A DNA stretch of 64,000 bases. It comes from an uncultured Olsenella sp. (GTDB taxonomy: Bacteria; Actinomycetota; Coriobacteriia; Coriobacteriales; Atopobiaceae). The position numbers and the translations under genes are program-made. Each line of letters opens with the position of its first letter. The stretch's first letter is position 1. The DNA is taken from NCBI GenBank assembly GCA_949291295.1, contig CASEVE010000001.1, positions 60,331 through 124,330 of the forward strand, read 5' to 3'. Shown in pieces: positions 4,828-63,938 of this stretch. The notes under the pieces were generated by a model. The model was not told the origin of the DNA, did no database searches, and saw nothing but the letters and a program-made list of their open reading frames with translations.

Positions 4828-4952
4828 CTGAGTGGGCACAAAGATTCAACCAATCCGACCCATGGGGCTTAAGTGGGCACTCTCTAGCTGGGGTTTTATC
4901 CCAGCGCCCCCTTGAGTGGGCACAGCAGGTTCAACTTTTGTGCCCACTCAAG
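4828..4952 (+). repeat. 120-bp structured repeat element, copy 1
   Basis: GAGTGGGCAC-type boxes occur at 4830, 4871 and 4914 on the plus strand (steps of 41 and 43 bp), and a final inverted copy lies at 4940-4949. The first and last boxes extend through a conserved GTTCAAC-like tail. The last two form a hairpin with 13-14-bp arms (4911-4952). The whole element aligns base for base over long stretches with the reverse complement of 6281-6404, including the shared segments GGCTTAAGTGGGCACTC and AGCTGGGGTT. The two copies flank the gene at 4997-6079 in opposite orientation. Confidence 0.85.
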
Positions 4953-6079: not shown

Positions 6080-6280
6080 GGCATCCCTCCCTGACCGGAA
6101 GGTACGACACGCACACAAGGGAGGCAGTGCTCATTTTGGTTTCTGCAGAAATGACCCCTGTAAGCTCCGTGAAAGTTAGCGAGAAGAACGACAATCATCC
6201 TCGCTCAATGCCGGCGATAGCAAATCAAACGCAACGGCCGCCGCTTCGCCGTTATCCCCGCCCCGCCGCGCCGCCCCGCC

Positions 6281-6404
6281 GTGAGTGGGCACAAAAGTTG
6301 AACCACTCGTGCCCACATAAGGTACTTCTCGACAAGAACCCCAGCTCAGGAGTGCCCACTTAAGCCGTCCGCATCGGAGTAGTTGAAACTTTGTGCCCAC
6401 TCAC
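6281..6404 (-). repeat. 120-bp structured repeat element, copy 2 (inverted)
   Basis: Boxes GTGCCCACAT, GTGCCCACTT and GTGCCCACTC start at 6309, 6352 and 6393 (steps 43 and 41), and an opposite copy GAGTGGGCAC starts at 6283. Read on the minus strand it matches copy 1 (4828-4952) in box order, spacing and much of the intervening sequence. The outer ends form inverted arms, GTGAGTGGGCACAAA against TTTGTGCCCACTCAC. It lies 200 bp upstream of the nuclease-like gene. Confidence 0.85.
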
Positions 6405-6451
6405 GGAGAGGCCCGGCAACGGAGAGGCCGAGAAGAACGACGTCGCCCCGC

Positions 6452-6489
6452 AAAAAACGACGGCGGACCCGGGAGGAGGTCCGCCGTCG
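6452..6489 (-). terminator. terminator of the liv operon
   Basis: On the minus strand a 12-bp stem CGACGGCGGACC / GGTCCGCCGTCG with an 8-base loop is followed by six T (A at 6452-6457 on plus). It is 24 bp past the livF stop. Confidence 0.9.
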
Positions 6490-6512
6490 CCTGACGCCAT
6501 GATCGGTGGAGG

Positions 6513-7223
6513 TCATCCGCCGAGGTAGGCCTTCCTAACGTCATCGTCAACAAGCAGCTCGGCACCGGTGCCGGTCTTCTTGATGGTGCCAATCTCAAGG
6601 ACGTAGGCACGGTCGGCAATGGAGAGCGCCATGTTGGCGTTCTGCTCGACGAGAAGAATCGTGGTGCCCGCCTCGTTGAGCTGCTTCACGATGTCAAAGA
6701 TCTCCTGAACCAAAATGGGGGCCAGGCCCATCGAAGGCTCATCCAGCATGAGCAGACGCGGGCGGCTCATGAGGGCGCGTCCCATCGCAAGCATCTGCTG
6801 CTCGCCGCCAGAAAGTGTGCCCGCCACCTGGCTGCGACGCTCCTTCAGGCGCGGGAAGTGCGTATACACCTTCTCGAGCGTCTCCTTGTTCTCCGCGTCG
6901 GAGCGGGTGTAGCCACCCATCTCAAGGTTCTCAGCAACGCTCATCTGGGTAAACACACGCCTGCCCTCGGGACAGAGCGCAAGGCCGCGCTTCATGACCT
7001 TGTGCGCCGGAACGCCCACGATCGAGCCGCCGTCAAACTCCACCGAACCCGAGTCGGGCTTGATGAGGCCCGCAATGGTGTTGAGCGTTGTGGACTTACC
7101 CGCGCCGTTAGCGCCGATCAGCGTCACGATCTCGCCCTCGTTGATGTCAAAGGAGATGCCGCGCACAGCCTTGATGGCCCCATAGGAGACGTGCAGGTCC
7201 TTTACGGAAAGCAGGGTAGCCAT
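6513..7223 (-). CDS. livF: branched-chain amino acid ABC transporter, ATP-binding subunit LivF
   Basis: Second ATPase of the LIV importer. The Walker A motif GANGAGKST, the ABC signature LSGGEQQMLAMGRALM and the Walker B motif LLMLDEPSMGL are intact, and the QEIFDIVKQLNEAG segment and short C-terminus are typical of LivF. It has 236 aa, the family's usual length. Its ATG abuts the livG stop. It is the last gene of livJHMGF and is followed by a strong terminator. It works at the inner face of the membrane with LivG to power LivH/LivM. Confidence 0.95.
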   Translation of the reverse strand: MATLLSVKDLHVSYGAIKAVRGISFDINEGEIVTLIGANGAGKSTTLNTIAGLIKPDSGSVEFDGGSIVGVPAHKVMKRGLALCPEGRRVFTQMSVAENLEMGGYTRSDAENKETLEKVYTHFPRLKERRSQVAGTLSGGEQQMLAMGRALMSRPRLLMLDEPSMGLAPILVQEIFDIVKQLNEAGTTILLVEQNANMALSIADRAYVLEIGTIKKTGTGAELLVDDDVRKAYLGG

Positions 7224-8078
7224 CTACTTCACCTCCTGCTTGCCGAGATAGGCCTCGATGACGCGCGGGTCGTTTTGAATCTGCTCGGGCGTACCCTTGG
7301 CGATGATCTTGCCGTAGTCCAGCACGCCCACAACCTCGCACACACCCATGACGAGCGACATGTCGTGCTCGATGAGCAGGATCGCAATCTGGAACTCGTC
7401 ACGGATCTTCTGGATGTTCTCCATCAGCTCCTCGGTCTCAGCCGGGTTCATGCCGGCCGCAGGCTCGTCGAGGAGCAGCACCTTGGGGCTCGTGGCAAGC
7501 GCGCGCAGAATCTCGAGACGCCTCTGGGCGCCATACGGGAGGTTGCCCGCCTGGGTGTCTGCGTACTTGCGCATGTCAAAGATGTCGAGAAGCTCAAGCG
7601 CGCGGTCGTGGAACTCCGCCTCCTGCTTCCAGTGACCAGGAAGACGCAGCATATCCGTGATGAGGTGCGTCTTCATGGTGTTGCCAAAGCCCACGAGCAC
7701 GTTCTGCTCAACGGTCATCTGGGAAAAGAGTCGGATGTTCTGGAAGGTGCGGGCGATTCCCATGCGGTTGACCTCTGCCACGGACTTGCCCGCCGTGTCA
7801 TAGCCGTCAACGAGCACGGTTCCACGGGTGGGCTGATAGACGTTGGTCAGCAAGTTGAAGATCGTGGTCTTGCCCGCACCGTTGGGACCGATGAGGCCAG
7901 AGATCTCCGTGCGACCCATGGCAATGTTGAAGTCATCAACGGCCGTGAGTCCGCCAAAGTCGATACCCAGGTGCTCCGCCTGCAGCACCGGGATGGTGCC
8001 AAGGTCGCGCTCGGGAATGAGGTTGGGCGTCTCCATCTGCACGAGAACGGAGCGGTGCTTCTTCTTCTCGCTAGACAT
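7224..8078 (-). CDS. livG: branched-chain amino acid ABC transporter, ATP-binding subunit LivG
   Basis: First ATPase of the LIV importer. Walker A is GPNGAGKTT, the signature region is LPYGAQRRLEILRALA and Walker B is VLLLDEPAAGMNP. The C-terminal VVGVLDYGKIIAKGTPEQI extension with the 'PRVIEAYLG' tail is typical of LivG. It has 284 aa, slightly longer than average because of a charged N-terminal stretch (MSSEKKKHRS). It overlaps the livM 3' end by 8 bp and abuts livF, so translation is probably coupled along the operon. Confidence 0.95.
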   Translation of the reverse strand: MSSEKKKHRSVLVQMETPNLIPERDLGTIPVLQAEHLGIDFGGLTAVDDFNIAMGRTEISGLIGPNGAGKTTIFNLLTNVYQPTRGTVLVDGYDTAGKSVAEVNRMGIARTFQNIRLFSQMTVEQNVLVGFGNTMKTHLITDMLRLPGHWKQEAEFHDRALELLDIFDMRKYADTQAGNLPYGAQRRLEILRALATSPKVLLLDEPAAGMNPAETEELMENIQKIRDEFQIAILLIEHDMSLVMGVCEVVGVLDYGKIIAKGTPEQIQNDPRVIEAYLGKQEVK

Positions 8079-9231
8079 CGGCGCTCACCTCCTCCCCCTT
8101 CGCGGCGTCCGCGGGCGCGTCGTCTTTCTTCTTCCACGGAAAGTCGCGGTTCATGACTCGCTCGATGATGCGAGAGAGCGAGAAGTCATAGGAGCCGAGA
8201 AGTCCCTGCGGCCTAAAGATCATCACGAGGATGAGCACGATGGCGTAGGCAATCATGCGGTACTCGGAGAACGCGCGCAGCGCCTCGGGCAGGATGGTGA
8301 GCACGGTGGCGGAGAGCGCTGAGCCGAGCATGGAGCCCATGCCGCCAAGAACCACCATGACCAAGATCTCGATGGACTTCATGAAGCCGAAGTAGGCGGG
8401 CTGCAGGACGCCGATGCATCCGGCGTAGAGGCCGCCGGCCATGCCCGCAAAGAACGCGGACGCAACGAAGGCGAGCGTCTTGTAGTAGGTGGTGTTGACA
8501 CCTGTGGCCTCAGCGGCGATCTCGTTGTCACGGATGGCGAGAATGGCGCGGCCGTGACGAGACTTCATCATCGTGTGGATGAGGAAGCACACTATGGCCA
8601 CGCAGGCAAAGACAAGAAGGAAGCTCGAGTAGCCGGGTATTCCGGTGAGACCCTTTGCGCCGCCCGTGAGCTTGAAGCCGAGGACGCTGTCGATGTTGAG
8701 CATCACAACGCGAATGATCTCCGCAAAGGCGAGGGTGATGATGGCGAGGTAGTCGCCCTTGAGGCGCAGTGCCGGAATGCCGATGATGATGCCGGCAACG
8801 GCTGCGCACAGGCCTCCCACAAGAAGGCCGCCAATGACGAGCAGAACCGTGAGCGGCGTGCCCGTCGTGAAGTCCCGCGCACCAACGCCGAGCACCTCGG
8901 CCATGCGCATCACAAAGATCGCGCAGCCATAGGCGCCCACGGACATAAAGCCCGCGTGTCCGAGCGGCAGCTGACCGAGGTAGCCGGTCGCAATGTTGAG
9001 CGAGACTGCCAGGATGATGTAGACGCCAACCTGCTCAAGAACCGTGGACTGATAGCGCGTGATGGCACCGCCGTCAATCATGAGCTCGCCCACAACGAGG
9101 ACGAGAAGAACCAGCACGGCGTTGATCGCATAGCGCACGGGCATCGGCAGGGTCTTCTTGCTTCCGGACGCGCCGCCGCGTCCGCCGGTGGAAATGATGG
9201 GGCGCTTATCGGTCATGATCTCCTCTTCCAT
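8071..9231 (-). CDS. livM: branched-chain amino acid ABC transporter permease LivM
   Basis: Membrane permease of the LIV importer, 386 aa. About nine hydrophobic segments follow a polar N-terminus of about 30 residues. Conserved LivM segments are visible: LSLNIATGYLGQLPLGHAGF, IGIPALRLKGDYLAIITL, and the C-terminal GGMGSMLGSALSAT. The tail after the last helix is charged (PWKKKDDAPAD) and cytoplasmic. Two starts are possible: the ATG at 9231 (GGGGG upstream) and the ATG at 9216 (GAGGAG immediately upstream). It lies 12 bp after livH and overlaps livG. Confidence 0.93.
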   Translation of the reverse strand: MEEEIMTDKRPIISTGGRGGASGSKKTLPMPVRYAINAVLVLLVLVVGELMIDGGAITRYQSTVLEQVGVYIILAVSLNIATGYLGQLPLGHAGFMSVGAYGCAIFVMRMAEVLGVGARDFTTGTPLTVLLVIGGLLVGGLCAAVAGIIIGIPALRLKGDYLAIITLAFAEIIRVVMLNIDSVLGFKLTGGAKGLTGIPGYSSFLLVFACVAIVCFLIHTMMKSRHGRAILAIRDNEIAAEATGVNTTYYKTLAFVASAFFAGMAGGLYAGCIGVLQPAYFGFMKSIEILVMVVLGGMGSMLGSALSATVLTILPEALRAFSEYRMIAYAIVLILVMIFRPQGLLGSYDFSLSRIIERVMNRDFPWKKKDDAPADAAKGEEVSADV

Positions 9232-25729: not shown

Positions 25730-25758
25730 GTCGCGGGGCCGTACCCGGAGTATGCGCC

Positions 25759-26116
25759 GCCGAGAAAACCAGCCCTCTGTACCAGTTTTCGAAATTGACG
25801 CCGAGAAATGCCCGCCTCTGTACCGCTCACCAAGACCGTGCGCCGAGAAAGTTGGCCTTCTGTATCAGCGGGGGACGCAGCACGGGCGGGTGGTCGGTAC
25901 AGCAGCAGGCTTTTCTCGGCACGGACGGTACAGCAACAGGCTTTTCTCGGCACTTCGCAGGGCAACGCGGTACAGCGGCAAGGTTTTCTCGGCACCCTGC
26001 AGGGCAACGCGGTACAGTAGCCGGGTTTTCTCGGCACTCCGCACCAAAACTGGTACAGACCTTCGGCTTTCTCGACACGCCCCTCGAAACCGGTACAGAC
26101 CCGGGTTTTTCTCGGC
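25759..26116. repeat. 42-bp-periodic flip array B
   Basis: Three minus-orientation units start at 25759, 25800 and 25842. Six plus-orientation units start at 25896, 25927, 25969, 26011, 26052 and 26092. Steps are 41, 42, then 54 across the flip, then 31, 42, 42, 41 and 40. Unit structure is as in array A (GGTACAG, 9 variable bases, TTTCTCGGC). Linkers partly repeat (AGGGCAACGC twice). It fills the 456-bp gap between the tRNA terminator and the convergent ABC ATPase gene; nothing else is seen there. Confidence 0.9.
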
Positions 26117-26141
26117 ACCGAGACAGGCGAGCGGCGCGGCC

Positions 26142-28310: not shown

Positions 28311-28330
28311 CGCCCGCCGCGCGCCAACGC

Positions 28331-29007
28331 GCCGAGAAGAGCCGGGGACCGTACCCGCGGGGCTGTCCCCTCTTCGGCAAACGCCGAGAAAGACCGGGAG
28401 CTGTATCGGCTTGCCGGGCCCCGCGCCGAGAAAGGCCTGGTGCTGTACCGCGGCGCCGGGTCCCGTGCCGAGAAAACCTGGGTGCTGTACCGCGGCGCCG
28501 GGTCCCGCGCCGAAGAATAACGTCCGCTGTACCGCCGCCCGCCGTTGGGCGCCGAGGAATGCGGCCCACTGTACCGATATTTCTCATTCCTGCCGAGAAA
28601 GACGGACCGCTGTACCGCCTTGCCACGTGCTGGCGGATTGCCCCTGGTACAGAGGTCCACATTCCTCGTCGCGAAGTGCGTCGAACCGGTACAGAGGACG
28701 ACAATTCGCGGCGCCTCGCAGCAAGCGAGGATGCAGATAGCCGTCTCTTTCGTTGCCCCAAGGCGTAAGGCGGTACAGAGGGCCGTCTTTCTCGGCACCC
28801 AACGGCGGGCGGCGGTACACCGGACGGTTTTTCTCGGCAGCGAGCGTCGGCAGCTGGTACAAGACCCGGGTTTTCTCGGCAGCGAGCGTCGGCGCTGGTA
28901 CAGGACCCGGGTTTTCTCGGCAGGCAGGCAGACGGGCAGCCTGGTACGGGGCTCGGCATTTCCCGGCAGGCGGAGCGAGCCTGGTACAGCCCCCGCTTTT
29001 CTCAGTC
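28331..29007. repeat. 42-bp-periodic flip array C (largest)
   Basis: Seven minus-orientation units start at 28331, 28383, 28425, 28467, 28509, 28551 and 28592. Nine plus-orientation units start at 28646, 28688, 28730 (decayed), 28772, 28814, 28856, 28897, 28943 and 28983. Nearly all steps are 41 or 42, and the flip step is again 54. Some linkers repeat (GCGGCGCCGGGTCCCG, GCAGCGAGCGTCGG). A GGGGCTGTCCCC palindrome at 28359-28370 explains the one long step after unit 1. It lies between ilvA and the ilvD leader; 29008-29128 holds nothing I can identify. Confidence 0.92.
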
Positions 29008-34636: not shown

Positions 34637-35572
34637 CTAGTCGACCTTGCACAGAATGCCCTCGACCGTCCATCCGGACGCCTCGAGCGCCGAGGCCTCG
34701 TCCTCGAGGGCGAGCATGTGATCGCCGCTGCGAGGGTCGTAGAGGCGCATGAGGTCGCGCCTCGTGCCCGCGCGCCATGCCGCGCCCTCGTAGTCCCAGC
34801 GCGCGATGACGAGCGTGCCAACCTCCGTGGGGTCGCGCGACCAGACGTGGCCGCCATCTTCATATGGGTTGTAGAGGCGGTACACCTGCGAGCCTTTGCC
34901 CTGGCGGAACTTCACGCCCTCGTACCGCCAGCCAACGCCGACCAGCGACTCGGCCTCCTCGCGGCTGGTTGTGAAGTGATGGCGGTTGGCGTAGGGGTTG
35001 TAGAGGCGGTAGACGCCGTCCTTCACGGCCTCGATCGACACCCTCTCCTCCTCTTCCTCTCCGTCGAGGATCGCGTTGACCTGCCTGGCCAGCTCTCCCA
35101 TGCGGGCGTGCAGGTAGGGTCCCGGGCAGTTGGTGGCCGCGTACATCTGGTGCTCGGTGAGCGAGCCGCTGGAGTCGCCGGTGTACTCCAGGCGAAAGCC
35201 GTGACGGCGGCAGATGTCGGCGCAGAGCCTCACCAGGGAGTCCCATGACTTCTGGGAGATGGGCCACTCGCCGCCCGTGGACGAGTTGGCCACCTCGATG
35301 GTGATGGCCCTGTTGTCGTTCCAGGAGCTTGAGGAGCACCAGGAGCGGTCTCCCTCGTCGACGCAGCCCACGATCTCGCCCTCGTAGCCGATGCAGTAGT
35401 TGGAGCTCGCGTTGCGGCCGCGCACGTCGAAGCTCTCGGCGCATCGCTCCCCTGTCCACACGGCACACATGTGGTGCGGGGTGATCTTGCAGGCGCGGCA
35501 GCCGGATCGTCCGGAGCTGTGGTTGTAGCTCGGGTTCCTGTGGATGCTGTCGCACAGCGAGCTGTAGCCCAT
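34637..35572 (-). CDS. endolysin: N-acetylmuramoyl-L-alanine amidase with YRLYN repeats
   Basis: 311-aa lysis enzyme. The N-terminal domain (about 1-165) is an Amidase_2/PGRP fold, which cuts the stem peptide from muramic acid: HHMCAVWTG near residue 33 and AITIEVANSS are typical, and EHQMYAATNCPGPYL near residue 140 supplies a C-terminal zinc-site Cys. The C-terminal half has three DUF5648-like repeats (GVYRLYNPYANRHHFTT, QVYRLYNPYEDGGHVWS, DLMRLYDPRSGDHMLAL), the same family as the host's secreted proteins at 18623 and 20109. These presumably bind the host wall. No signal peptide, so export depends on the holin encoded upstream. Confidence 0.88.
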   Translation of the reverse strand: MGYSSLCDSIHRNPSYNHSSGRSGCRACKITPHHMCAVWTGERCAESFDVRGRNASSNYCIGYEGEIVGCVDEGDRSWCSSSSWNDNRAITIEVANSSTGGEWPISQKSWDSLVRLCADICRRHGFRLEYTGDSSGSLTEHQMYAATNCPGPYLHARMGELARQVNAILDGEEEEERVSIEAVKDGVYRLYNPYANRHHFTTSREEAESLVGVGWRYEGVKFRQGKGSQVYRLYNPYEDGGHVWSRDPTEVGTLVIARWDYEGAAWRAGTRRDLMRLYDPRSGDHMLALEDEASALEASGWTVEGILCKVD

Positions 35573-35717: not shown

Positions 35718-35993
35718 TCACTTCGCCAGGGAGCCCCTGGCGGCGCTCAGGCCGATGAGGGCGCCTCCGAAGAGCGCCAGGTAGCTGCACGTCTGCGTGA
35801 CCTCGGTGGCAAGCGGCCACCCCCACACGCCCGCGAGCCCCGAGTAGAATGCTCCCAGCGCGGGCAGTGCGATGAGCACCACCCACTTGAGCGCCGTGTA
35901 GACGGGGCCTGGCAGCCAGTAGGTGCGCGGCACGTCCTCGACGGGGACGTCCTCGGCCTCGATCGTCTCTTTCTCTTTCTCTTCCTCTTCCAT
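35718..35993 (-). CDS. phage holin, r1t/LL-H type
   Basis: 91 aa with an acidic N-terminal tail (MEEEEKEKETIEAEDV). Two membrane helices follow (ALKWVVLIALPALGAFYSGLAG and CSYLALFGGALIGLSAA) around a polar turn ATEVTQT. The helix order and YTALKWVVLIALPALGAFY signature match the r1t holin family, which opens the membrane so the lysin can reach the wall. It is encoded just before the lysin in the same transcript. Confidence 0.85.
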   Translation of the reverse strand: MEEEEKEKETIEAEDVPVEDVPRTYWLPGPVYTALKWVVLIALPALGAFYSGLAGVWGWPLATEVTQTCSYLALFGGALIGLSAARGSLAK

Positions 35994-36542: not shown

Positions 36543-37439
36543 ATGCTCGTCTCGATGGCCGCGCTCGCATATGTTTCTGCCAAGTCGATCCGCCTGAGGG
36601 GCAACACCCTGGAGGGCTATGAGAGCGCCCTGCGCGTCCACGTCCTGCCCCGGTGGGCGGCGACCGACATAGAGGAGATCGACCCGCGCGACATCCAGCG
36701 CTGGGTGGACGGGTTCGAGCGCCCGGGCGCGGCAGAGAAGGCCTACAAGACGCTCAGGCAGGTCATCCGATGGGCGATGCGCCACTATCGCCTGCGCCTG
36801 CGCATCTGGGACCCCACCAGCCACGGGGTGGAGCTGCCGCGCAAGGCGGCGTACCGCCCGCGCGTGCTCGACGCGCGCGAGCTCAAGTCGATGCTTCGCG
36901 GCCTGTGGGGACGGGTCCCGCCCGCCGTGGAGGCGGTGGCCATCATCGGCTCGTGTCTCGGGGCGCGGCGGGGCGAGGCGTGCGCCGTCGACCTCGCGCG
37001 ATCCGTGGACTGGCGCACCGGCGAGGTCGCGCTCGGCCCGTCGCTCCAGGTCGTGCGCGGAAGGCTCACCGTGCTTCCCGCAAAGACGCCCAAGAGCGAG
37101 CGCGTGGGGGTGCTGCCGTCCTTCGCGCTGCGCCGTCTGCGCCAGCTCTTCCCTCGCCACAGGAGACGCGGGCTCGTCTCGCAGGGCATGAGACCCGACG
37201 AGGTCGCGCGGCGCCTGCGCTCCTCCTGCCGCCGGCTGGGCCTCCCTCACGTGCCGCCCAAGCAGCTTCGACACACGTGGGCAACGCTCGCCGTCGAGGC
37301 GGGCGTCTCGATAGAGACCGTGGCGATGATGCTCGGCCACACCGACGTCGGCACTGCGTACGAGCACTACATCGTCAGCCGGAGGGGGATATGTCGCGAG
37401 GCCCAGCGGAAGGTCGAGTCCCTCATCATGTCGACGTAG
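36543..37439 (+). CDS. tyrosine recombinase of the tail-fibre inversion system
   Basis: 298-aa tyrosine recombinase, the only plus-strand gene in the phage. A SAM-like core-binding domain (about 10-80) is followed by the catalytic domain with Arg in GARRGE (142/143), Lys near 181, the box KQLRHTWAT (Arg243, His244; the usual first His is Lys240), LGHTDVGTA (His266) and the nucleophile Tyr in TAYEHYI (273 or 276). GAAAGGA lies upstream of the ATG. It ends 20 bp before the inverted repeat at 37460, inside the late tail/lysis region far from the integrase at 63 kb. I infer that it inverts the adjacent 419-bp segment; most known fibre invertases are serine recombinases, so this is a different solution. 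Confidence 0.88.
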   Translation: MLVSMAALAYVSAKSIRLRGNTLEGYESALRVHVLPRWAATDIEEIDPRDIQRWVDGFERPGAAEKAYKTLRQVIRWAMRHYRLRLRIWDPTSHGVELPRKAAYRPRVLDARELKSMLRGLWGRVPPAVEAVAIIGSCLGARRGEACAVDLARSVDWRTGEVALGPSLQVVRGRLTVLPAKTPKSERVGVLPSFALRRLRQLFPRHRRRGLVSQGMRPDEVARRLRSSCRRLGLPHVPPKQLRHTWATLAVEAGVSIETVAMMLGHTDVGTAYEHYIVSRRGICREAQRKVESLIMST

Positions 37440-37459
37440 GGCGACGCGGGGAGCCGAAT

Positions 37460-37479
37460 CTCCGAGATTCCCTATCCCG
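37460..37479 (+). repeat. left inverted repeat of the invertible segment
   Basis: CTCCGAGATTCCCTATCCCG, a perfect inverted copy of 37859-37878. It begins on an in-frame CTC codon (the L of NLRDSLSR) in both reading directions, so inversion keeps the frame. Confidence 0.95.
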
Positions 37480-37666
37480 CGCGGTCACGATCGGCTACGA
37501 CGCCCAGTCGGCGGTCGCTGAGCAGCAGGTGTCAAGCAACCAGGCGGTCAGGCTGCACGTGAGGGGCGACATGGGCAACTACATCCTCATCGCGAGCCTG
37601 ACCGGAATCTCCCTCTATGACTCCGATGCGGGCAGGTCGGTTTGGTTCATCGGGGCGAACTCCTAG
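37460..37666 (+). other. silent alternative tail-fibre C-terminal cassette
   Basis: A promoterless, start-less plus-strand coding stretch. It reads NLRDSLSR, then AVTIGYDAQSAVAEQQ, ending with SVWFIGANS and a TAG at 37664-37666. From NLRDSLSR it is 69 residues, exactly the length of the expressed fibre end, and alignable to it (NYILIASLTGISLYDSDAG against RYMLVAADSYLGLYNVTTS). It becomes the end of the fibre gene if the segment between the inverted repeats is flipped. Confidence 0.92.
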
Positions 37667-37671
37667 GCCTC

Positions 37672-38619
37672 CTAGCTCATGTTTTGCCGCCACACCCACG
37701 AGCTCGTCGTGACGTTGTAGAGGCCCAGATACGAGTCGGCGGCGACGAGCATATACCGGCCGTCGTCTGTCTCTACCGCCACGACGACGCGCTGGGCGGC
37801 CGCGTAGCTCGTCCCGATCTGCGCGGCCGTCGTGTCGAGCTCTCTGAGCGTGACGGTCCGGGATAGGGAATCTCGGAGGTTAGAGATGCCGAGGTATTCC
37901 TGCGCCTCCTCAAGGGTGCTACCACCGGTGCCGCCGTTTTCGATCTGTACGACGGGCTGCCATGACGGCAGGTTGCTTGCGCCGTCCATGTAGAGGAGGC
38001 CGCTCCCGGGCGGGACGTGCCCCATCATCAGCTTGTCGCTCGGGCCGTAGGACGCGTTGACGCAAGGGATGGAGCCGGCCTCCCATCCCGAGGAGTCGAC
38101 CCCGAGCCCCCCGTAGGCCTGGGGGAGGACGCCGGCTCGCGGCCCGCTCGCTCCGGCTCCGGTGTTGTCGAAGCCGTTCCACATGGCGCCCTGGCCCTCG
38201 ACGGCCACGACGTTGTGGGGGGAGACCCCCTGGTTCACGAAGAGGAAGCTCCCGTCGGTTTGGGTCAGGTCCGCGCCGGTTCCTCCGTGGGCGATCGGCA
38301 GCACGCCGGTCACGCCCGGTCGTGGGGACGCCTTGAAGACGCTCTCCGCGCTCGATGAGCCCAGGTTGACGAGCATGGACGGACCTCTCGTGAGGCCGCT
38401 CCCGCCCTTGTTGACGGGCACGACGGGCAGCTTGCTCACTGGGATCGAGGGCAGGCGGTCGGACGAGAGTGTGCCCGAGCTGACGTCGGATGCGTCGTGA
38501 ACGTGTCCTATGGGCGACTTCTTGTCCAACTCGCCGCGGATTGCGTCGGCGAGGTACTTGAGGCCCTTGAGGGTGAGCACCTTGGCCCCGGAGACGATCC
38601 TGTCGGTTAGCGCCGCCAT
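37672..38619 (-). CDS. phase-variable tail fibre protein
   Basis: 315 aa. The N-terminal part (KVLTLKGLKYLADAIRGELD) probably attaches to the baseplate. Several GGTG-type fibre repeats follow (VNKGGSGLT, IAHGGTGA, QAYGGLGVD, IENGGTGGST), then the variable C-terminal 69 residues starting at NLRDSLSR, the likely receptor tip. The last 207 bases (37672-37878) lie inside the invertible segment and can be replaced by the opposite-strand cassette at 37460-37666. It follows the tail-collar fibre gene by 1 bp. No reverse transcriptase is nearby, so this is not a diversity-generating retroelement. Confidence 0.9.
   Translation of the reverse strand: MAALTDRIVSGAKVLTLKGLKYLADAIRGELDKKSPIGHVHDASDVSSGTLSSDRLPSIPVSKLPVVPVNKGGSGLTRGPSMLVNLGSSSAESVFKASPRPGVTGVLPIAHGGTGADLTQTDGSFLFVNQGVSPHNVVAVEGQGAMWNGFDNTGAGASGPRAGVLPQAYGGLGVDSSGWEAGSIPCVNASYGPSDKLMMGHVPPGSGLLYMDGASNLPSWQPVVQIENGGTGGSTLEEAQEYLGISNLRDSLSRTVTLRELDTTAAQIGTSYAAAQRVVVAVETDDGRYMLVAADSYLGLYNVTTSSWVWRQNMS
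37859..37878 (-). repeat. right inverted repeat of the invertible segment
   Basis: Reverse complement of 37460-37479, inside the tail fibre gene. Similarity extends a few bases further with mismatches (GTCACG on the cassette side). Confidence 0.95.
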
Positions 38620-38620
38620 G

Positions 38621-39211
38621 TCAGACCTCCTGTCCCGCGGGCCTGCCGGAGAGGTCGGGGAAGACCTCGGAGGCGGTCTCCGCCCCGCATGCGATCGTTT
38701 CGTCGTAGACCTTGTGCTCGTGGGGGAAGACGGCGTCGATGTCGTCCTCGGTTATCTCGTAGATGCTGACGACGAAGTCGGGGTCGAATGTCGCGGTGAC
38801 CTCAGCGTCCTCGCCGACGTAGGTGACGACGTAGAGGAGCTTCTCAACGAGCGTCTCCCCGCCCTTCGGCATGAGCTCCGGCGCGTCGTCGTGCCCGTAC
38901 GCGTAGAGGACCTCGGTTCCGTCGGGGCCCTTCGCGTACAGGCCGAGCTCGGACCACTCGAAGTCGGCGTCCTGGTCCTCGTTGGAGTAGCGGACCCCGA
39001 TGACGGCCCGACCGTCCTCGGTCCTCGTCGCCATCGTGATGGACGCCTCGGCCCGCGGGCTCGAAACAGACGTCATGTCGGCCGGCGACGCGCCCTCCGG
39101 CATGTCGCCGTCGCCCAGCACCGCGCGCGTGAAGGTTATCGTCTGCCCCGCGAGCACCCCCGCGACGAGGGACTCGCCGGCGTCCGTCAGGTGGTTGTCA
39201 GCGAACCTCAT
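38621..39211 (-). CDS. phage tail-collar fibre protein
   Basis: 196 aa. The N-terminus (RFADNHLTDAGESLVAGVLAGQTITFTRAVLGDG) and following strands (FEWSELGLYAKGPDGTEVLYAYG) match the N-terminal domain shared by phage tail-collar fibres (DUF3751 type), which docks fibres on the baseplate. It is encoded between baseplate gpI and the variable fibre, as in P2-like phages. Confidence 0.82.
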   Translation of the reverse strand: MRFADNHLTDAGESLVAGVLAGQTITFTRAVLGDGDMPEGASPADMTSVSSPRAEASITMATRTEDGRAVIGVRYSNEDQDADFEWSELGLYAKGPDGTEVLYAYGHDDAPELMPKGGETLVEKLLYVVTYVGEDAEVTATFDPDFVVSIYEITEDDIDAVFPHEHKVYDETIACGAETASEVFPDLSGRPAGQEV

Positions 39212-39254: not shown

Positions 39255-39776
39255 TCAGGGCCACCCCCGCCCTTGGGGCGAAGTCGCGAAGAGGCCGATC
39301 ATCACTGAGTCGAGCTTGCTCGAGAGCCTCTTCACCTTGTGCAGCATGTCGAGGAACCGCTCGAGGTTCGACCCGACCGCGGTCGGGTCGGTCGTGTAGA
39401 CCTTGAAGTGGTGCGGCGCCCCGCTGTACCGGGGCCACTCGACCACGCGGCCCTCGCCGAAGTAGGCGCTGATCACGCTCTCGACCGCCCCGACGGTCCC
39501 CTGCGTCTGGTGGACGCGGTCGCTCTCGAGGATGAGCCTGCGCTTCGTCTCGAGCGGGGCCCCGGAGTCGTACCAGCGCACGTCGAGCGCCCAAGCCAGC
39601 TCGTCGAGGTACGCCTCGGGGAGCCATGCCACGGCGTCCCACACGCTGAGGGCGGCGAGGGACGGCGCGAGCGAGCGGAACACCTCGTCGACGCCCGACG
39701 CGAGAGCCGCGTCCGCGAGGTCGCCTCGCATCCACGTCGGCAGCAGCCTCACGAGCTCGAGGTCGGCGAGCCTCAA
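39255..39776 (-). CDS. baseplate protein gpI (P2-like)
   Basis: 173 aa, phage tail protein I family. RLADLELVRLLPTWMRGD at the N-terminus, then SVWDAVAWLPEAYLDELAWALDVRWYD and LETKRRLILESDRVHQTQGT are the family core. The TTG at 39776 gives a TTGA overlap with the gpJ stop; a GTG at 39785 is the alternative. It works with gpJ and gpW at the baseplate edge. Confidence 0.85.
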   Translation of the reverse strand: MRLADLELVRLLPTWMRGDLADAALASGVDEVFRSLAPSLAALSVWDAVAWLPEAYLDELAWALDVRWYDSGAPLETKRRLILESDRVHQTQGTVGAVESVISAYFGEGRVVEWPRYSGAPHHFKVYTTDPTAVGSNLERFLDMLHKVKRLSSKLDSVMIGLFATSPQGRGWP

Positions 39777-41137
39777 TCGGACCACCCCGCCCTCGACTCG
39801 ATCACGTGCGCGACCGCACGCTCCCCGCTGTGCCTCGCGACCTGGTCGCCGCGGACCGCGGCGTGCGAGGGGCTCGCGACGTCGCAGCGGATCGCCCCCG
39901 CCTCCATGACGTAGGCGATGAGGACGTCGGGGTTGACGTCGCGCCCCAGGGCGGAGTCCTGAGCCGCGACGTAGCGGTCTATGGCGCCGCCCTCCCCCTC
40001 GACCGCGGCGACGACGGCCGCCTCGTCGGTCGGGGAGCAGTAGTACGTGACGTCGATGTCGTAGGGGACCGTGATAGGAGCCTCGACGGTGACGACGTCG
40101 GTCATGGGGCGCACCGACGAGGAGCTGACCGCGGCGCTCACGGCCTCCAGGACGTCCTCCCCGGGCATCTCGCCCCCCTCCATGATCGGGATCACCCTGA
40201 CGCGGCCGTCCATGCGGCGCCTCACCGCGACCGTGACGCTCCCGGAGGACGACAGCCCGGGCCCGAGCGAGACGTCCAGCAGCGAGCGCTCGTAGGTCCA
40301 GGTGAAGCCGGTCGTCGCCCCGTTGACCGTCAGGAGCTCGCCGGGCTCGAGGAGGTCTCCTCCGACGAGGGCGTGCCCGTCGTAGACCGCGCACTCGACG
40401 GTGTCGTCGTAGTCCTCGGAAACGACGCCCACGTCGGCGATGCCCGGGTCCGCCGTCATCGCCCAGTAGCGGTAGGCGAGCTCCGGGCCGGCGGTCGAGA
40501 ACGCGTTCGGCGCGAGCCTGATGCGCTCTCGCAGGCGGTCGTCCCCGTCGGCCGTGTACGGCTCCCCGTCGTCCCCGCCGTGGGTCTCGTCGATGTTCGC
40601 GACCGACGAGACGTAGGGGATGAGGTCGACGAGCGAAGACACCTCGCCTGCCGGCACGCCGTTGCCGCCCTCGCCGGGGTCGGTGCAGCTCGCCGCGACG
40701 TCCGCGGTGAGGCCCCCGGGGGCTATGACGGCGTCCTCGTCGGTCGCGAAGTAGGTCTCGCCGTCGGCGGTCGCCCGCGTTCCGGACGGGATGGCGGTCG
40801 CCCGGTCGAGCGGCCCGGAGAGCGTGAAGCGCAGGGTGCACGTCGCCGGGGTGGGGTCGATCCTCTCGACCCCGACCCGCTCGCCCATGGCGTCGAGCAC
40901 CTGCCCGCGGGCGTATCGGAGCAGCGTCTGCCGCGACGCGTCGTTCGCCCTGCTCGCGTACGCAACGAGAACGGCGACGGTCGCCTCTGCGAAGATCCGC
41001 CTCTCGTCCCCCGGGTAGAGGGGCTCCCCGACCCCGGACTCGAGCGACGTCAGCACGCCCTCGTAGATGGACGCGCTGTCGACGTCGACGAGGTTCAGGG
41101 ACTCGTCGTAGGTGTCGGTCGATGTCGTCTCCGTCAT
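39773..41137 (-). CDS. baseplate protein gpJ (P2-like)
   Basis: 454 aa, Baseplate_J family. Typical segments: SLESGVGEPLYPGDERRIFAEA near the N-terminus, IPSGTRATADGETYFATDEDA, and DGDDRLRERIRLAPNAFSTAGPELAYRYWAM. The last forms the conserved Gly/Arg centre of the family. It is part of the baseplate ring that triggers sheath contraction. Confidence 0.92.
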   Translation of the reverse strand: MTETTSTDTYDESLNLVDVDSASIYEGVLTSLESGVGEPLYPGDERRIFAEATVAVLVAYASRANDASRQTLLRYARGQVLDAMGERVGVERIDPTPATCTLRFTLSGPLDRATAIPSGTRATADGETYFATDEDAVIAPGGLTADVAASCTDPGEGGNGVPAGEVSSLVDLIPYVSSVANIDETHGGDDGEPYTADGDDRLRERIRLAPNAFSTAGPELAYRYWAMTADPGIADVGVVSEDYDDTVECAVYDGHALVGGDLLEPGELLTVNGATTGFTWTYERSLLDVSLGPGLSSSGSVTVAVRRRMDGRVRVIPIMEGGEMPGEDVLEAVSAAVSSSSVRPMTDVVTVEAPITVPYDIDVTYYCSPTDEAAVVAAVEGEGGAIDRYVAAQDSALGRDVNPDVLIAYVMEAGAIRCDVASPSHAAVRGDQVARHSGERAVAHVIESRAGWSD

Positions 41138-41434: not shown

Positions 41435-41962
41435 CTACGGCATCTTCAGCGCGCGCTGCGAGTCGGTCGGCCCCACGGAGACTGCGGAGGTCGCCCCGGG
41501 CGACGATATGCCCGGCGTGAGGCCCCCGACGGTGCGCCGCTCCAGCCTCAGCCCGCTCTCGTCCTCGGCGTACTCCTCGAAGCTGAGCGAGATGGTGGCG
41601 GACGCCCACGCGCCGTCGGGGCGCATGAGGACGTCGCTGTGTGACGCGCTCTTGAGCAGGAAGAGGTCTGCCGCGAAGGTCCTCCCGTTCAGGTAGAACG
41701 GCGCGTAGGTCCCGACGCGCCGGGACCAGTCGTCGAACTCGTCCCGGGGGTCTCGCCCCGTCGCGCTCGCCGCAGCCGTGTACGAGAGGTCTATCGTCGC
41801 GAGGTCCAGCGCGACCGTCTGGGTCGCCGGCTCCCCCTCCTTGTCCTGGTTGCGCTCGACCGATACCGACCTGCTCGAGGAGAGCTCAGATATGGGGCGG
41901 GCGCAGCCCGGGGAGACGCCCCACGAGAACCCGTCCCACTCTGCCTGGGTTGCCATCGTCAC
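41435..41962 (-). CDS. phage tail/baseplate protein, unassigned
   Basis: 175 aa, with no motif I can name. WDGFSWGVSP, FDDWSRRVGTYAPFYLNGRTF and ATISLSFEEYAE suggest a beta-rich structural protein, perhaps gpU-like (tail terminator or hub adaptor). It starts with a GTG overlapping the stop of the spike-like gene (GTGA), inside the baseplate module. Confidence 0.6.
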   Translation of the reverse strand: MTMATQAEWDGFSWGVSPGCARPISELSSSRSVSVERNQDKEGEPATQTVALDLATIDLSYTAAASATGRDPRDEFDDWSRRVGTYAPFYLNGRTFAADLFLLKSASHSDVLMRPDGAWASATISLSFEEYAEDESGLRLERRTVGGLTPGISSPGATSAVSVGPTDSQRALKMP

Positions 41963-42293: not shown

Positions 42294-43214
42294 CTAGTAG
42301 CCGAGTGGCCTGGTCAGCCAGACCTTGGCCCTGCTGTCGAAGTAGTCGTGCCTGATGCGGCAAACGACCGCCGTTCCGTCCCAGCTCGCCGCGGCGCTCG
42401 CGGAGAGGTCGAGGACGGAGCCGGCGGCGTACCGCCGGAGCATGCTGTCGGTGCGGATGATCATCTGAGTGGCCTCGCGGTTCTCGGCGCGCAGCAGCCC
42501 CCTGGCCCACCGCTCGGCCTCGCCCGCGCTCGAGATGCGCTCGGGCACGACCTTCCTCAGGAGCTTTCCCCCGGCGCCGGCGTCGAACGTGCCGGTGGTC
42601 GTGCCGTCGGTGACCTCGCACGCGCCGTAGGAGCGCGCGGAGTCGTCGCGGAACTCGTAGTCGACGCCGGGCGTGACGCAGAGCTCGCCGGCCACCGCCT
42701 GCCCCTCGGCCCAGAGGCCCGAGAAGCAGACGAGCGCCCCGTCGTGGACGATCAGCGACGCCCCCTCGTAGGTGAGCCTGCGGTTGAGGAACGCGAGATC
42801 GCTCTCGTTGTCCTGCTCGACGTAGGCATACTCGAAGTTGGTGAGCCCATAGGTCTGGTAGGTCAGGCCGTGTCGCCGCGCGACCTCGCCCACGAGCTGG
42901 AAGAGCCGCACGCGCTCCCACGACTTGCAGCGTCGCTCGCGCATCTCGCGCGGAGCCGGGTAGGCCGTGACGGTGAGGTGGCTGGACTGCGGCACGACCG
43001 ACGAGACGAGCATCCGACCGGTGCGGGCGGCGCCGTCCTCTACGGCGATGGAGTCGCCGGGGGCAGGCCGCCAGCGGTCCCAGAGGTTGCGGACGTCGCC
43101 GAAGTCCACGGTCAGGGCGTCGAGGCCGCCCCAGGCGCGCTGGTCGCACCAGCAGCGGCCCACGGAGACGTCCGGGTAGATGTCGACGCCCTCGTAGATG
43201 ATCCTGAAGCTCAC
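42294..43214 (-). CDS. tail hub protein (gpD-like)
   Basis: 306 aa, late-control gpD/XkdQ family. FRIIYEGVDIYPDVSVGRCWCDQRAWGG at the N-terminus, FQLVGEVARRHGLTYQTYG and QDNESDLAFLNRRLTYEG in the middle, and RWARGLLRAENREA near the C-terminus are typical. The GTG at 43214 overlaps the gpX stop (GTGA) and has GGAGG 5 bp upstream; a GTG at 43226 is possible. It forms the central hub above the spike. Confidence 0.88.
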   Translation of the reverse strand: MSFRIIYEGVDIYPDVSVGRCWCDQRAWGGLDALTVDFGDVRNLWDRWRPAPGDSIAVEDGAARTGRMLVSSVVPQSSHLTVTAYPAPREMRERRCKSWERVRLFQLVGEVARRHGLTYQTYGLTNFEYAYVEQDNESDLAFLNRRLTYEGASLIVHDGALVCFSGLWAEGQAVAGELCVTPGVDYEFRDDSARSYGACEVTDGTTTGTFDAGAGGKLLRKVVPERISSAGEAERWARGLLRAENREATQMIIRTDSMLRRYAAGSVLDLSASAAASWDGTAVVCRIRHDYFDSRAKVWLTRPLGY

Positions 43215-43444
43215 TTGCGCCTCCACGGGGGCAGGGTGTCGGGGCTCTCGACGCGCTCCACGAGCGGCAGGTCGATGGACTCACCGCCCTCGAAGAGCAC
43301 GACGTCGCAGAGGTCGGGGTTGGCGGCGATGATCGTGCTCGCCATGACCTCCTGCCCGTAGGCCCGCCCCGCGAGCAGGTCGAAGGACTCGCCCGCGCGG
43401 CATGCGTAGGGTCGGTGGCCCGTGACCTCGACGGTGCTAGGCAT
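43211..43444 (-). CDS. tail protein gpX (LysM-like)
   Basis: 77 aa. CRAGESFDLLAGRAYGQEVMAS with IIAANPDL and a Pro-rich end matches phage tail protein X, a small LysM-like protein that joins tube and hub. It overlaps the tape-measure 3' end by 8 bp and the hub start by 4 bp. Confidence 0.88.
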   Translation of the reverse strand: MPSTVEVTGHRPYACRAGESFDLLAGRAYGQEVMASTIIAANPDLCDVVLFEGGESIDLPLVERVESPDTLPPWRRK

Positions 43445-46040: not shown

Positions 46041-46550
46041 CTAGAGCAGTGACTCCATGCCCTCGGAGTAGTCGACCCCGTTGAACTTGAAGATGCCGTT
46101 GAGCTGGTCGACGAGCAGCACCTCCGCGCCGTTCTTGACGAGGCGGAAGCGCGTCACGCCGAGCGTCACCTCGTTCTCGGGGGCGCTGCCGACCTCGCCG
46201 GAGACGCCTGGGATGGTCTTGCCGTTGGCCCTCATGAACGCCTTGTAGCCGTCCAGCCTCGAGTTGCCGTCGCTGCCCACTGACTGGAGGGCGAAGCGGA
46301 CCTCGACCTCCTTGGCGCCCGGGGCGCACAGCTCGGCGAAGGCCTCGTCGGGGCTGCCGACGGTGATCGTGGCCTCCATGGCGTCGACGTTGCCCGGGAC
46401 GGGCACCTCGACCGTTCCGCCGGCCTTGAGCTCGACGGTGGTGAGCGTGATCTCGGGCAGCGTGAAGTTGGCGTTGCGCGCGACGCGCCTGCCGCCGCAG
46501 TAGACGGTGGAGCCGGCGACGGCGCCGGTGATGTCGATCCAGCCTGACAT
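46041..46550 (-). CDS. major tail tube protein (P2 FII-like)
   Basis: 169 aa. TLPEITLTTVELKAGGTVEVPVPGNVDAMEATI and DGYKAFMRANGKTIPG fit the FII tail tube family, with a C-terminal FRLVKNGAEVLLVDQLNGIFKFNG strand. Its start overlaps the sheath stop (TAATG). It forms the inner tube through which DNA passes. Confidence 0.9.
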   Translation of the reverse strand: MSGWIDITGAVAGSTVYCGGRRVARNANFTLPEITLTTVELKAGGTVEVPVPGNVDAMEATITVGSPDEAFAELCAPGAKEVEVRFALQSVGSDGNSRLDGYKAFMRANGKTIPGVSGEVGSAPENEVTLGVTRFRLVKNGAEVLLVDQLNGIFKFNGVDYSEGMESLL

Positions 46551-48061
46551 TACTCATCACCATCCTCGAAGTAGGCCGCGAATCCGGCGTCGGTGTACGC
46601 CACGCGGATGGTCGCGGACTTGAGCGGCGGCGTGGGCGTGGCCTCGGCGTCCCAGACGAAGTCGCCCCGCATGAGCTGCGTCGTGTCGTTCCCCTCGACC
46701 AGGAACTCGATTGTTGGCTCGCCGATGAGGGCGCCCATGGTCACGAAGCGGTCGAGCTGCTCTTGCTCCGCGTTGACGATGCGGTCCTTGAGGGCGCGCG
46801 TCATTGGGCTGTCGATCTCCGGGCCCCAGCGCAGCTGGAAGTTGTTCGTGATGTCGAACAGCACCCGCATGTTGGCCGCGAAGTACGAGCGCGGGTCGAC
46901 GCTCGGGTTGTCTGCGTCGTAGGCCGCGGTGTGCGGCCCCCAGAGCACCCACTCGCCGGCCCAGCCGACGACCGTCGTGACGCCCTTTTCGTTGAGCGAG
47001 TTAGCCGTCTGCTGGTCGAAGCCGCGGTTCTTGGCGTTGTCGCCGAAGAACTGCCTGGTCACGGGCACGGCCTTGTTGGACGGGCTCTCGAAGGGCACGC
47101 CGTCGTGGGACTGGTCGACCCGCTGCGAGGCCGCCACGAAGAGCGTGGAGACGTGGAAGAGGCGGCCGTCGGCGTCCTCGGCCATCGGCCAGCACGCAAC
47201 GCAGCGCTCGCTCGAGTAGTTGCTCCTCGCCTTCCACGCCAGGGCCTTTGCGATGGTGTCGATCATCGTGGAGCCGTCGGAGGGGTCGACGAGCGGGAGG
47301 TCGGCCGCCACGATCGAGTTCCAGTGCCCGTTGACGGACTGGGACGCGGCCACGAGGGCCTCGTAGACGTCGGGGTCCTGGGACCAGCCCGGCGCGGCGA
47401 GCAGGTTCGGGACCACGAACTGTTCCTGCCAGAGCAGGGCGAGAGACTGGATTCCGGAGTACTGGCCGTCCGAGGTCACCGTGCCGATCACGTCCTCGGC
47501 GTCGACGGCGTCAGGGTCCATCTCGGAATAGGTGACCTTCGCCGCGCCGTCCTCGATGTCGCCGCCGTCGACGGCGGTGATGACGAGCCTGCCGTTGACG
47601 GCGTCGTAGTCGAGCGCGTAGTCGGCGCCCTCGACGTATGTCGTGGAGCCGGTCGAGTCCTTGACGGCGACGGTGTCGATGACGGCGGTGTCGGTCGCGA
47701 CCTCGGCGCGGCCCGCGACGAAGCTCACGTCCTTCTCGGACTCGGCGGACGCCCTGTGGACTGCCGGGTCGAGGACGTTGACCACGTAGATGGGGCCGAC
47801 GCCCTCGCCGCCGCTGTCGAAGTGGGCGGCGATCGCCTCGCAGAGGGTGAAGCCGCCGAAGTCGGTGGAGTACCCCACCTTGGCGCGGGCGTCGGCGAGG
47901 CTGGAGATGCGCACGGGCACGTTGACCACGTCCATCTCGGAATAGCCGCGCACGAGGCCCACGGGGGCGGTGCCGAAGTAGACCGGCACGGTGGCGCTCT
48001 CCACGACCCTCTGGACGACGGAGTCGTCCAGCAGGCCGTACGCGCCGTGCTTGTAAGCCAT
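46550..48061 (-). CDS. tail sheath protein (P2 FI-like)
   Basis: 503 aa contractile sheath. VPVYFGTAPVGLVRGYSEMDVVNVPVRISSLADARAKVG at the N-terminus, and RWGPEIDSPMTRALKDRIVNAEQEQLDRFVTMGALIG with the TIRVAYTDAGFAAYFE C-terminal strand, are typical of phage sheaths, which place conserved domains at both ends with a variable insertion between. AGGAGG lies 5 bp before the ATG at 48061. It establishes a myovirus-type tail. Confidence 0.92.
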   Translation of the reverse strand: MAYKHGAYGLLDDSVVQRVVESATVPVYFGTAPVGLVRGYSEMDVVNVPVRISSLADARAKVGYSTDFGGFTLCEAIAAHFDSGGEGVGPIYVVNVLDPAVHRASAESEKDVSFVAGRAEVATDTAVIDTVAVKDSTGSTTYVEGADYALDYDAVNGRLVITAVDGGDIEDGAAKVTYSEMDPDAVDAEDVIGTVTSDGQYSGIQSLALLWQEQFVVPNLLAAPGWSQDPDVYEALVAASQSVNGHWNSIVAADLPLVDPSDGSTMIDTIAKALAWKARSNYSSERCVACWPMAEDADGRLFHVSTLFVAASQRVDQSHDGVPFESPSNKAVPVTRQFFGDNAKNRGFDQQTANSLNEKGVTTVVGWAGEWVLWGPHTAAYDADNPSVDPRSYFAANMRVLFDITNNFQLRWGPEIDSPMTRALKDRIVNAEQEQLDRFVTMGALIGEPTIEFLVEGNDTTQLMRGDFVWDAEATPTPPLKSATIRVAYTDAGFAAYFEDGDE

Positions 48062-48101
48062 GCGCACCTCCTAGTGCGTTGTTCGGTTCTGTGCTGCTGC
48101 C

Positions 48102-62751: not shown

Positions 62752-62976
62752 TCAGCCCCAGCTGACGGAGCCGTCCTCGCGGACCTCGGCCGCGCCGGCG
62801 CCCAGGTCGCGGCACAGCCCCTCCAGCTCGTCGATCGCGCCGTCGAGGCGCGCCTCCCCCGTGGTGCCCGGCGCCGCGGCGGCCCAGCCCCTCGCGAGGG
62901 CCTCGAGCCTTGCCCCGGCGAGCTCCCTGACCGTTGCCAGGCTGACCACAGACCTCTCCGCCATCTCGTCTGTCAT
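62752..62976 (-). CDS. small phage protein after the integrase
   Basis: 74 aa (MTDEMAERSVVSLATVRELA ... GAAEVREDGSVSWG), helical, no family. Its ATG overlaps the integrase stop (ATGA), so it is co-translated; an accessory role in integration or excision is possible on position alone. Confidence 0.55.
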   Translation of the reverse strand: MTDEMAERSVVSLATVRELAGARLEALARGWAAAAPGTTGEARLDGAIDELEGLCRDLGAGAAEVREDGSVSWG

Positions 62977-63938
62977 ACCGTCCCCCTCCCGGGCGCGGCG
63001 CCGCGCCCGATCGTTTCCCTGAACGCCTCGGCCGCCGCCGCGTCCCTGCCCGGGAGCACGTGGCCGTAGAGCCTGAGCGTCGTGGCCACGTCGGCGTGGC
63101 CGAGCCTCTCCTGCACCACCCGGATGTTCACGCCCGCCGCCAGGAGCGCAGTGGCGTGCGTGTGCCGCAGCGTGTGGAAGTGCGCCCACCCTGGCAGCCC
63201 TAGGGCAGCGCACGCCGCCTTGAGGGCGTCGTTGAGCGCCGAGGGCGCCGTGAGGGCACCCGACTCCGTCACGATCGGCGCGTCGGGCCCGAGCTCGCCC
63301 TGCTCCTCGAGGGCGCGCGCCACGACGGCGTCGTCAGCCGCGGTGATCGTCACGCGCCGGTCGTCGCCTCCCTTGGTGGCGTCCTGCCGGTGCAGCCCGC
63401 CGGCCTCCACGACGGTCCCGCACACGAGCAGGTCCGGCACCGACGCCCGGCGGTCCCTCCGCCGCAGGCCCGCGACCTCCGACGCCCTCATGCCCGTGAC
63501 CAGGCCGAGGTACACCGCCAGCGCGTCTCGCTTGCGCCTCGACCACGGGCCTCCCCCGAGAAGGGCGCCCTCCGCCCACGCGCCGAGCCTCGCGGCCTCG
63601 GGCTCGCTGAGGGCTCGGGCGCTCTCGGAGGCCCCGGGCCTCGCCGAGGGGTGCTCGACGTCGGCCATGGGCGTTGACTCGCAGAGGCCCTGGCGCACGG
63701 CCCACCTCAGCGCCGAGCAGAGGAACCAGTGCGTGCCCGCCACCGTTGACGGCGCGAGCCCCATGCCGCCAGCGGAGCGAGGGGCGAGCATGCGGCGGTA
63801 GGCGGCCGTGACCTGCCGCGGCGTCAGCGCGTCCACGGTCGCGCCGGGCAGGGCCGCGCAGACGCGTCGCAGGTGGGTTCGGTACGAGCGCGCGGTGTTG
63901 GCTGTTGATGTGCAATAAGAAATAGCCCAAGCGTGCAT
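62973..63938 (-). CDS. phage integrase (tyrosine recombinase)
   Basis: 321 aa. Core-binding domain about 10-95 (TANTARSYRTHLRRVC; AGTHWFLCSALRWAVRQG), catalytic domain with Arg151 (GMRASEVAGL), Lys189 (DATKGGDDRRV), FHTLRHTHAT (His255, Arg258), GHADVATTLRLYGHV (His281, Tyr291). All catalytic residues are present. The ATG at 63938 yields a slightly short N-terminus, and an upstream arm-binding part could exist beyond an alternative start. It heads the leftward early operon. Confidence 0.92.
   Translation of the reverse strand: MHAWAISYCTSTANTARSYRTHLRRVCAALPGATVDALTPRQVTAAYRRMLAPRSAGGMGLAPSTVAGTHWFLCSALRWAVRQGLCESTPMADVEHPSARPGASESARALSEPEAARLGAWAEGALLGGGPWSRRKRDALAVYLGLVTGMRASEVAGLRRRDRRASVPDLLVCGTVVEAGGLHRQDATKGGDDRRVTITAADDAVVARALEEQGELGPDAPIVTESGALTAPSALNDALKAACAALGLPGWAHFHTLRHTHATALLAAGVNIRVVQERLGHADVATTLRLYGHVLPGRDAAAAEAFRETIGRGAAPGRGTV

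Follow-up and report, generated by a model that had tools for sequence, protein, structure and literature searches.

A probable two-state, Rin-type switch of the tail-fibre tip in a P2-like prophage of an uncultured Olsenella

Why should a tail-fibre gene run across one arm of a perfect inverted repeat, while a second reading frame with a different end faces it from the other arm? The question is raised by a prophage locus in an uncultured Olsenella sp., which we analysed within a window of 64,000 nucleotides, the whole stretch of contig CASEVE010000001.1 to which all positions refer. The two arms, each of 20 bp, are perfect reverse complements of each other (20/20) and enclose a segment of 419 bp, 37460..37878. 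A first-pass annotation had described these arms, together with the peptide NLRDSLSR read across the repeat on both strands in one frame, a run of 69 residues from its N to the stop in each reading, and stop codons placed symmetrically about position 37669. All of this is borne out by the sequence when recomputed with scripts, the stops lying at 37664-37666 (plus strand) and 37672-37674 (minus strand), 5 bp apart. When the 419-bp segment is reversed in silico, the fibre frame still reads through to the alternative stop codon.

A perfect 20-bp inverted repeat with arms 100-1000 bp apart arose in none of 60 dinucleotide-preserving shuffles of the window, and the 20-mer, allowing up to two mismatches, occurs at just these two places in the 2.28-Mb assembly. 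The window holds nine overlapping 20-mer inverted pairs in four places, four of them (in two places) spaced 100-1000 bp, so that the repeat by itself is not unique; it is the coding symmetry, rather than the repeat alone, that distinguishes the segment. Within the arms, TTCCCTATCCC is found at 37468 (+) and 37860 (-), its sole two copies in the window (0.01 expected by chance).

Other repeats were also observed. A perfect 23-bp inverted repeat (4928-4950 with 6282-6304, ~1.36 kb apart) lies outside the prophage. Repeat units of ~42 bp with GGTACAG...TTTTCTCGGCA occur in both orientations at 25758-26118 and 28330-28923, in arrays that flank a host gene resembling threonine deaminase. Another contig of the genome has a third ATTCCCTATCCC, which was considered as a possible distant cassette and dropped; it sits in a 392-aa ORF that does not resemble a fibre and, judged by eye, adjoins an ABC-transporter-like ORF.

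What enzyme might act on the repeat? The end of a tyrosine recombinase gene lies 20 bp from the left arm; the first-pass annotation mentioned neither this gene nor the Rin family. Its reading frame is uninterrupted, with a core-binding domain near the N-terminus (from residue 13) followed by the catalytic domain, and the family profile aligns to XerC/XerD-type structures. Residues R142, K181, R243, H266 and Y273 are invariant across 30 aligned recombinase sequences, and Y273, going by the XerD alignment and the known motifs of such enzymes, is presumably the nucleophile. The segment is thus accompanied by a PF00589 enzyme of tyrosine type and not by a serine recombinase of the Gin/Cin type. 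A second tyrosine recombinase, likely the integrase, is encoded at the opposite end and shares 39% identity with the first over 80 aa only, leaving a tyrosine recombinase with no arm-binding domain next to the fibre and separate from the integrase. The second enzyme also has no long extra N-terminus (its XerC profile match starts at residue 11), and the arm therefore does not separate invertase from integrase here.

The phage, apparently dormant in the bacterial chromosome, is contractile-tailed and P2-like according to its predicted tail genes (Table 1). No Pfam family matched the fibre gene itself. Contig and window end at the same point, so that no right border of the prophage was found.

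Table 1. Predicted features of the prophage and of the invertible segment, in window coordinates
Feature	Position	Strand	Description
Endolysin (Amidase_2)	34637-35572	-	Pfam
Holin (Phage_holin_Dp1)	35718-35993	-	Pfam
Tyrosine recombinase gene, predicted invertase (Rin-like)	36543..37439	+	298 aa; Pfam PF14659 residues 13-56, PF00589 residues 141-277
Silent tip cassette	37457..37666	+	69 codons from N of NLRDSLSR, plus stop
Left arm of inverted repeat	37460..37479	+	Site ATTCCCTATCCC at 37467-37478; proposed 7-bp core TTCCCTA 37468-37474
Active tip	37672..37881	-	Last 69 codons of fibre gene, plus stop
Tail-fibre gene	37672..38619	-	315 aa, constant part residues 1-246; weak PHROG tail fibre match, E 0.0044
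Right arm of inverted repeat	37859..37878	-	Within fibre gene; site ATTCCCTATCCC at 37860-37871; proposed core 37864-37870
Upstream fibre or collar-type gene	38621..39211	-	phrog_7037 tail fiber protein, E 6e-40
Tail_P2_I gene, contractile-tail baseplate	39255-39773	-	Pfam PF09684, E 1.1e-18; above curated cut-off
Baseplate_J gene, contractile-tail baseplate	39773-41137	-	Pfam PF04865, E 8.3e-53; above curated cut-off
GpU gene	41435-41962	-	Pfam, below curated cut-off
Hub GPD gene	42294-43226	-	Pfam, above curated cut-off
Tail tube FII gene	46041-46550	-	Pfam, above curated cut-off
Sheath gene	46550-48067	-	Pfam, below curated cut-off
Second tyrosine recombinase, likely integrase	62973..63938	-	PF00589, E 2.9e-21; opposite end

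The silent and active tips are homologous (BLASTP E 3e-6, 38% identity over 64 aa), and when the eight shared residues NLRDSLSR are left out of the alignment the real score is reached by none of 2000 residue shuffles. Their GC contents at the three codon positions are 0.57/0.46/0.86 (silent) and 0.59/0.49/0.87 (active). AlphaFold2 models built on a 12-sequence tip alignment place five strands in identical order in both, with mean pLDDT values of 85.8 for the silent and 83.0 for the active tip. The silent tip is a conserved homologue of its active counterpart, coding-like in base composition and predicted to adopt the same five-strand fold; no start codon belonging to it was found in its context. 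At E <=0.001 neither the silent tip (against the PDB and viral models) nor the active tip (against the PDB) matched a known fold, and fold searches are thus silent on the receptor. The two tips would be expected to bind different cell-surface receptors.

Is the arrangement peculiar to this phage? Profile scans for the recombinase found 78 loci among the viral contigs and 80 among the species genomes, from which those at ~37% identity or more were studied: 23 from viral contigs and 16 from species genomes which, with the window and two named phages, make 42. They come from Eggerthellaceae, Collinsella, an OL-1 record, a Bifidobacteriaceae assembly, phage contigs with no named host and the two named phage records. 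The window's recombinase is homologous to many that lie beside the same site in Coriobacteriia loci; homologues in the Bifidobacteriaceae assembly and in Bifidobacterium phage PMBT6 are 39% and 37% identical. Matches to the recombinase occur in 6 of 31 genomes of its own genus at E <=1e-10 (the window's included, the others being 28-32% identical), in 19 of the 396 sampled from the class at E <=1e-30 and in 4 of 140 from the family at E <=1e-60, the window's own genome again being counted in both. A scan of viral contigs with the closest recombinase subgroup gave five loci, all on contigs already reached. For the fibre, two stretches in the viral contigs fitted a search pattern, neither of them a relative, and the phage collection held no match; the first 18 bp of the repeat had no match in the viral contigs.

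The wider site table covers 34 of the 42 loci. Three that are near-identical to others (L018, L022 and L025, to L096, L021 and L101 respectively) were left out, as were L035, another piece of the L031 contig, and L032, L098, L099 and L106, which have too little sequence past the recombinase and yielded one site or none. In 32 of the 34, sites in both orientations follow the recombinase, as TTCCNTATCCC or a variant of it; L020 and L092 are cut off. A first, narrower site search had found no inverted pair in L023, L026, L030, L031, L095, L098, L103, L104 and L105, among others, and a free search for inverted 11-mers then revealed variant cores of their own in these loci, L098 lying outside that search. 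Two-site relatives (L029, L036, L097 and L107) exist, and hence the binary form is not unique to the window.

At these sites the reading frame is maintained. Read as D/H-S-[VLI]-S, the site leads into an open tip of at least 50 codons in 88 of 89 cases, compared with 11 and 35 for the other two frames. In the wider table 138 of 143 sites are in frame with an open tip, and the PMBT6 locus is a poor fit (30, 94 and 14 codons). In all 24 loci where at least two sites were scored, every copy within a locus has an identical free base; the search left this base open, but copies with quite different cores would have escaped it. Between loci the 7-mer varies, as TTCCCTA, TTCCGTA, TTCCTTA, TTCCATA, TTCTCTA, TTCGCTG, TTCCAAA, TTCTGTA, TTCCTTG and TTGCTTG; the wider table matched each exactly, so that within-locus identity there is no independent evidence. 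The three bases directly before the core are GGA in the fibre-side copy of 22 of 23 loci, with the window (AGA) as the exception, and the 70 non-fibre-side copies have GCA (35), GGA (17), TGA (12) or others (6). With GGGA before the fibre-side core in 27 of 32 loci of the wider table, the usual layout reads as GGGA-7 bp-TCCC, a short dyad around the core, which is the expected form of a tyrosine-recombinase site. The exact crossover would fall within this core.

Three features of individual relatives are recorded here for their own sake. L105, from an uncultured Coriobacteriia assembly, has twelve copies of ATTCCTTGTCCC at 5937-8284, eleven facing one way and a single one the other; they form a large array of what are predicted to be small fibre ends. 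In L103 a ~190-bp inverted repeat (~4303-4492 with 5064-5253) spans two whole Rin-type cassettes, the same silent unit apparently occurring on each side. The fibre-adjacent genes deposited as "integrase" in Bifidobacterium phage PMBT6 (L199) and in ctl617 (L200) are relatives of the recombinase with inverted sites nearby, and may encode invertases.

Comparisons between relatives reveal the inversions themselves. When L015 is aligned with L094, recombinase (93%) and constant fibre end (93%) are collinear but the intervening cassette is inverted (84%), and at the site the aligned blocks share 13 bp; the active tip of L015 corresponds to a silent one in L094. The fibre copies of these two loci agree at 55/60 positions before the core and 17/60 after it, and the L015 active tip matches the L094 silent cassette at 24/60 before and 47/60 after. 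Likewise the inner segment of L028 is inverted in L100 (596 bp, 94%): after the core, opposite-strand copies agree at 58/60 and 52/60 positions and same-strand copies at 29/60 and 28/60. The inner segment of L019 equals that of L028 (100%). Both contrasts are between related phages and do not show a single clone in its two states. Three further pairs (L016/L034, L024/L102 and L025/L021) had no inversion, their cassettes being in the same orientation or not common to both. Among relatives, then, two comparisons reveal inverted segments whose breakpoints fall at the site; neither includes this phage.

For this phage, the collections searched held no flipped copy. P0121, the representative of the cluster that matches the window fibre, shares its tip and differs in 2 of 315 residues; it stands for four sequences that may include the window's own, and is weak evidence either way. 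Among database proteins none was found with the silent tip: of 37 candidates, not one reached E <=0.01. This absence so far rests on very few sequences of this phage. P0122, a 46% relative, diverges from the window past LRDSLS into a longer, unrelated end, which fits tip exchange at that point.

We propose that the recombinase (36543-37439) would recombine the two inverted sites, with strand exchange within the TTCCCTA core, so flipping the 419-bp segment and joining the constant fibre part (residues 1-246) to one or other of the two 69-residue tips; the swap would likely change which cells the phage can attach to. Since there are only two sites, in opposite orientation, a flip is possible and cassette deletion is not, making this a binary switch and not a shufflon. 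Such a Rin-type inversion switch is very probably the correct explanation. We infer that the recombinase acts on these two sites and that both orientations occur in this phage, and an effect of the tip swap on host range would be expected.

Could the locus instead be a former Rin locus, worn down to two sites, with a dead recombinase and one tip permanently silent? The failure to see a flipped copy or a silent-tip protein would fit such a locked state, as would two particulars that could, from the sequence, reduce recombinase activity: the window's enzyme has two extra residues (RL), derived from a 6-bp tandem duplication and absent from 29 aligned relatives, and the left half-site on the fibre side is GAGA, against GGGA in 27 of 32 fibre-side sites. 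Yet the recombinase frame and invariant residues are intact, the silent tip has no internal stop and keeps its coding-type composition and its homology to the active tip, and a recombinase 92% identical to the window's is found elsewhere (P0001, on a 35.7-kb contig); we consider permanent locking improbable. That the enzyme serves merely to integrate the prophage, with a repeat that arose by accident or works as a transcription terminator, is scarcely credible. Pfam and PHROGs do call the protein an integrase, as do the annotations of its relatives in the two best-matching named phages, but a second tyrosine recombinase stands at the opposite end, the relatives keep their position beside the fibre with an in-frame site, and the between-site segments are inverted among them. 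The arms, ~380 bp apart, are too distant for a hairpin terminator.

Flipping might also serve something other than host range, such as evasion of antibodies or of surface decoys that inactivate phage, with the receptor unchanged. The like strand layout predicted for both tips would agree with this, as would fold searches that gave no receptor lead, but the tips share just 38% of their aligned residues, and according to PMC6109161 host range is altered by fibre-tip variation in the well-studied Gin/Cin systems; this purpose seems unlikely to us. We return, then, to the Rin-type inversion switch, and regard the locus as likely to be a real, working binary fibre switch. As an invertible fibre-tip cassette, the two-state switch proposed by the first-pass annotation is well supported by its adjacent recombinase, family-wide site and frame, and inversions in relatives; its flipped state is unseen.

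How does this locus compare with known systems? The Rin shufflon is described in PMC6109161 from Bifidobacterium prophages Bb423phi1, Bl30698phi1 and Bl157phi1. As in the window, a tyrosine-family recombinase distinct from the integrase adjoins the receptor-binding-protein locus there, and a constant N-terminus is combined with alternative C-termini. The Bifidobacterium rix site, TTCCCTAACCC, agrees with TTCCCTATCCC of the window at 10 of 11 bases and is likewise short, asymmetric and inside the gene; in the window such a site lies inside the fibre gene and at each cassette. The likeness is one of site and layout, with Rin taken from its description. Bifidobacterium Rin has several cassettes, and its variant orientations are documented in reads and virions, whereas the window has two and is known from assembled sequence. 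With two sites and two tips, it falls short of the three or more C-terminal cassettes of a Rin shufflon. Eggerthella lenta clade 1 prophages, according to PMC8778435, also carry a Rin shufflon, in a host that would belong to the same class, Coriobacteriia; the recombinase is next to small Rv genes, the integrase is at the opposite wing, and the repeat ttccgtat matches the window at 7 of 8 positions. Those prophages have several Rv genes and Siphoviridae-like structural proteins, in contrast to the P2-type contractile-tail genes of the window. A second inversion described in PMC6109161, in Bifidobacterium tRNA-Met prophages, resembles the window in its ~500 bp and two alternative gene ends, but has an 8-bp site, CAGGGTTA, no adjacent recombinase and genes of unknown function.

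The Gin (Mu) and Cin (P1) systems share with the window the two-state swap of tail-fibre C-termini, and their phages are contractile-tailed. Gin and Cin, however, are serine recombinases, whereas the enzyme beside the window's segment is a tyrosine recombinase. No title in the literature searched described a two-state tyrosine invertase on a contractile-tail fibre. Among the related viral records none of 18 had the Baseplate_J gene, in a search positive for 3 of 14 control genomes; no record was rated 90% complete, and the absence is therefore unproved. A tblastn search with the window's Baseplate_J and Tail_P2_I found no match in the flanks of 30 related loci, three of which (L015, L024 and L094) partly matched the constant fibre. 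The Rin kind is already known; what is new is that a phage with a P2-like contractile tail carries it as a two-state form.

From the comparisons, the crossover would lie at a short core, which stays the same within a phage but varies from one phage to another. It may be, though we hold the idea tentatively and rather doubt it, that the 7-bp core, which lies between GGGA and TCCC arms and has the form TTCCNTA (in a broader version TTNNNNR), is the strand-exchange overlap for a whole class of phage invertases and also a private lock, and that the window is the contractile-tail, binary version of a module that moved to a P2-like phage. If so, with one core per phage, tips would recombine within their own locus only, and a change of core would found a new, isolated tip library. 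The short core also bears on a question put in PMC6109161, how direction is controlled by a tyrosine invertase that has no arm-binding domain. With one enzyme, two sites, two tips and no deletion products, this locus would be the simplest testable form of a predicted multi-cassette class, and it suggests that such fibre variation is in use outside the siphovirus-like phages.
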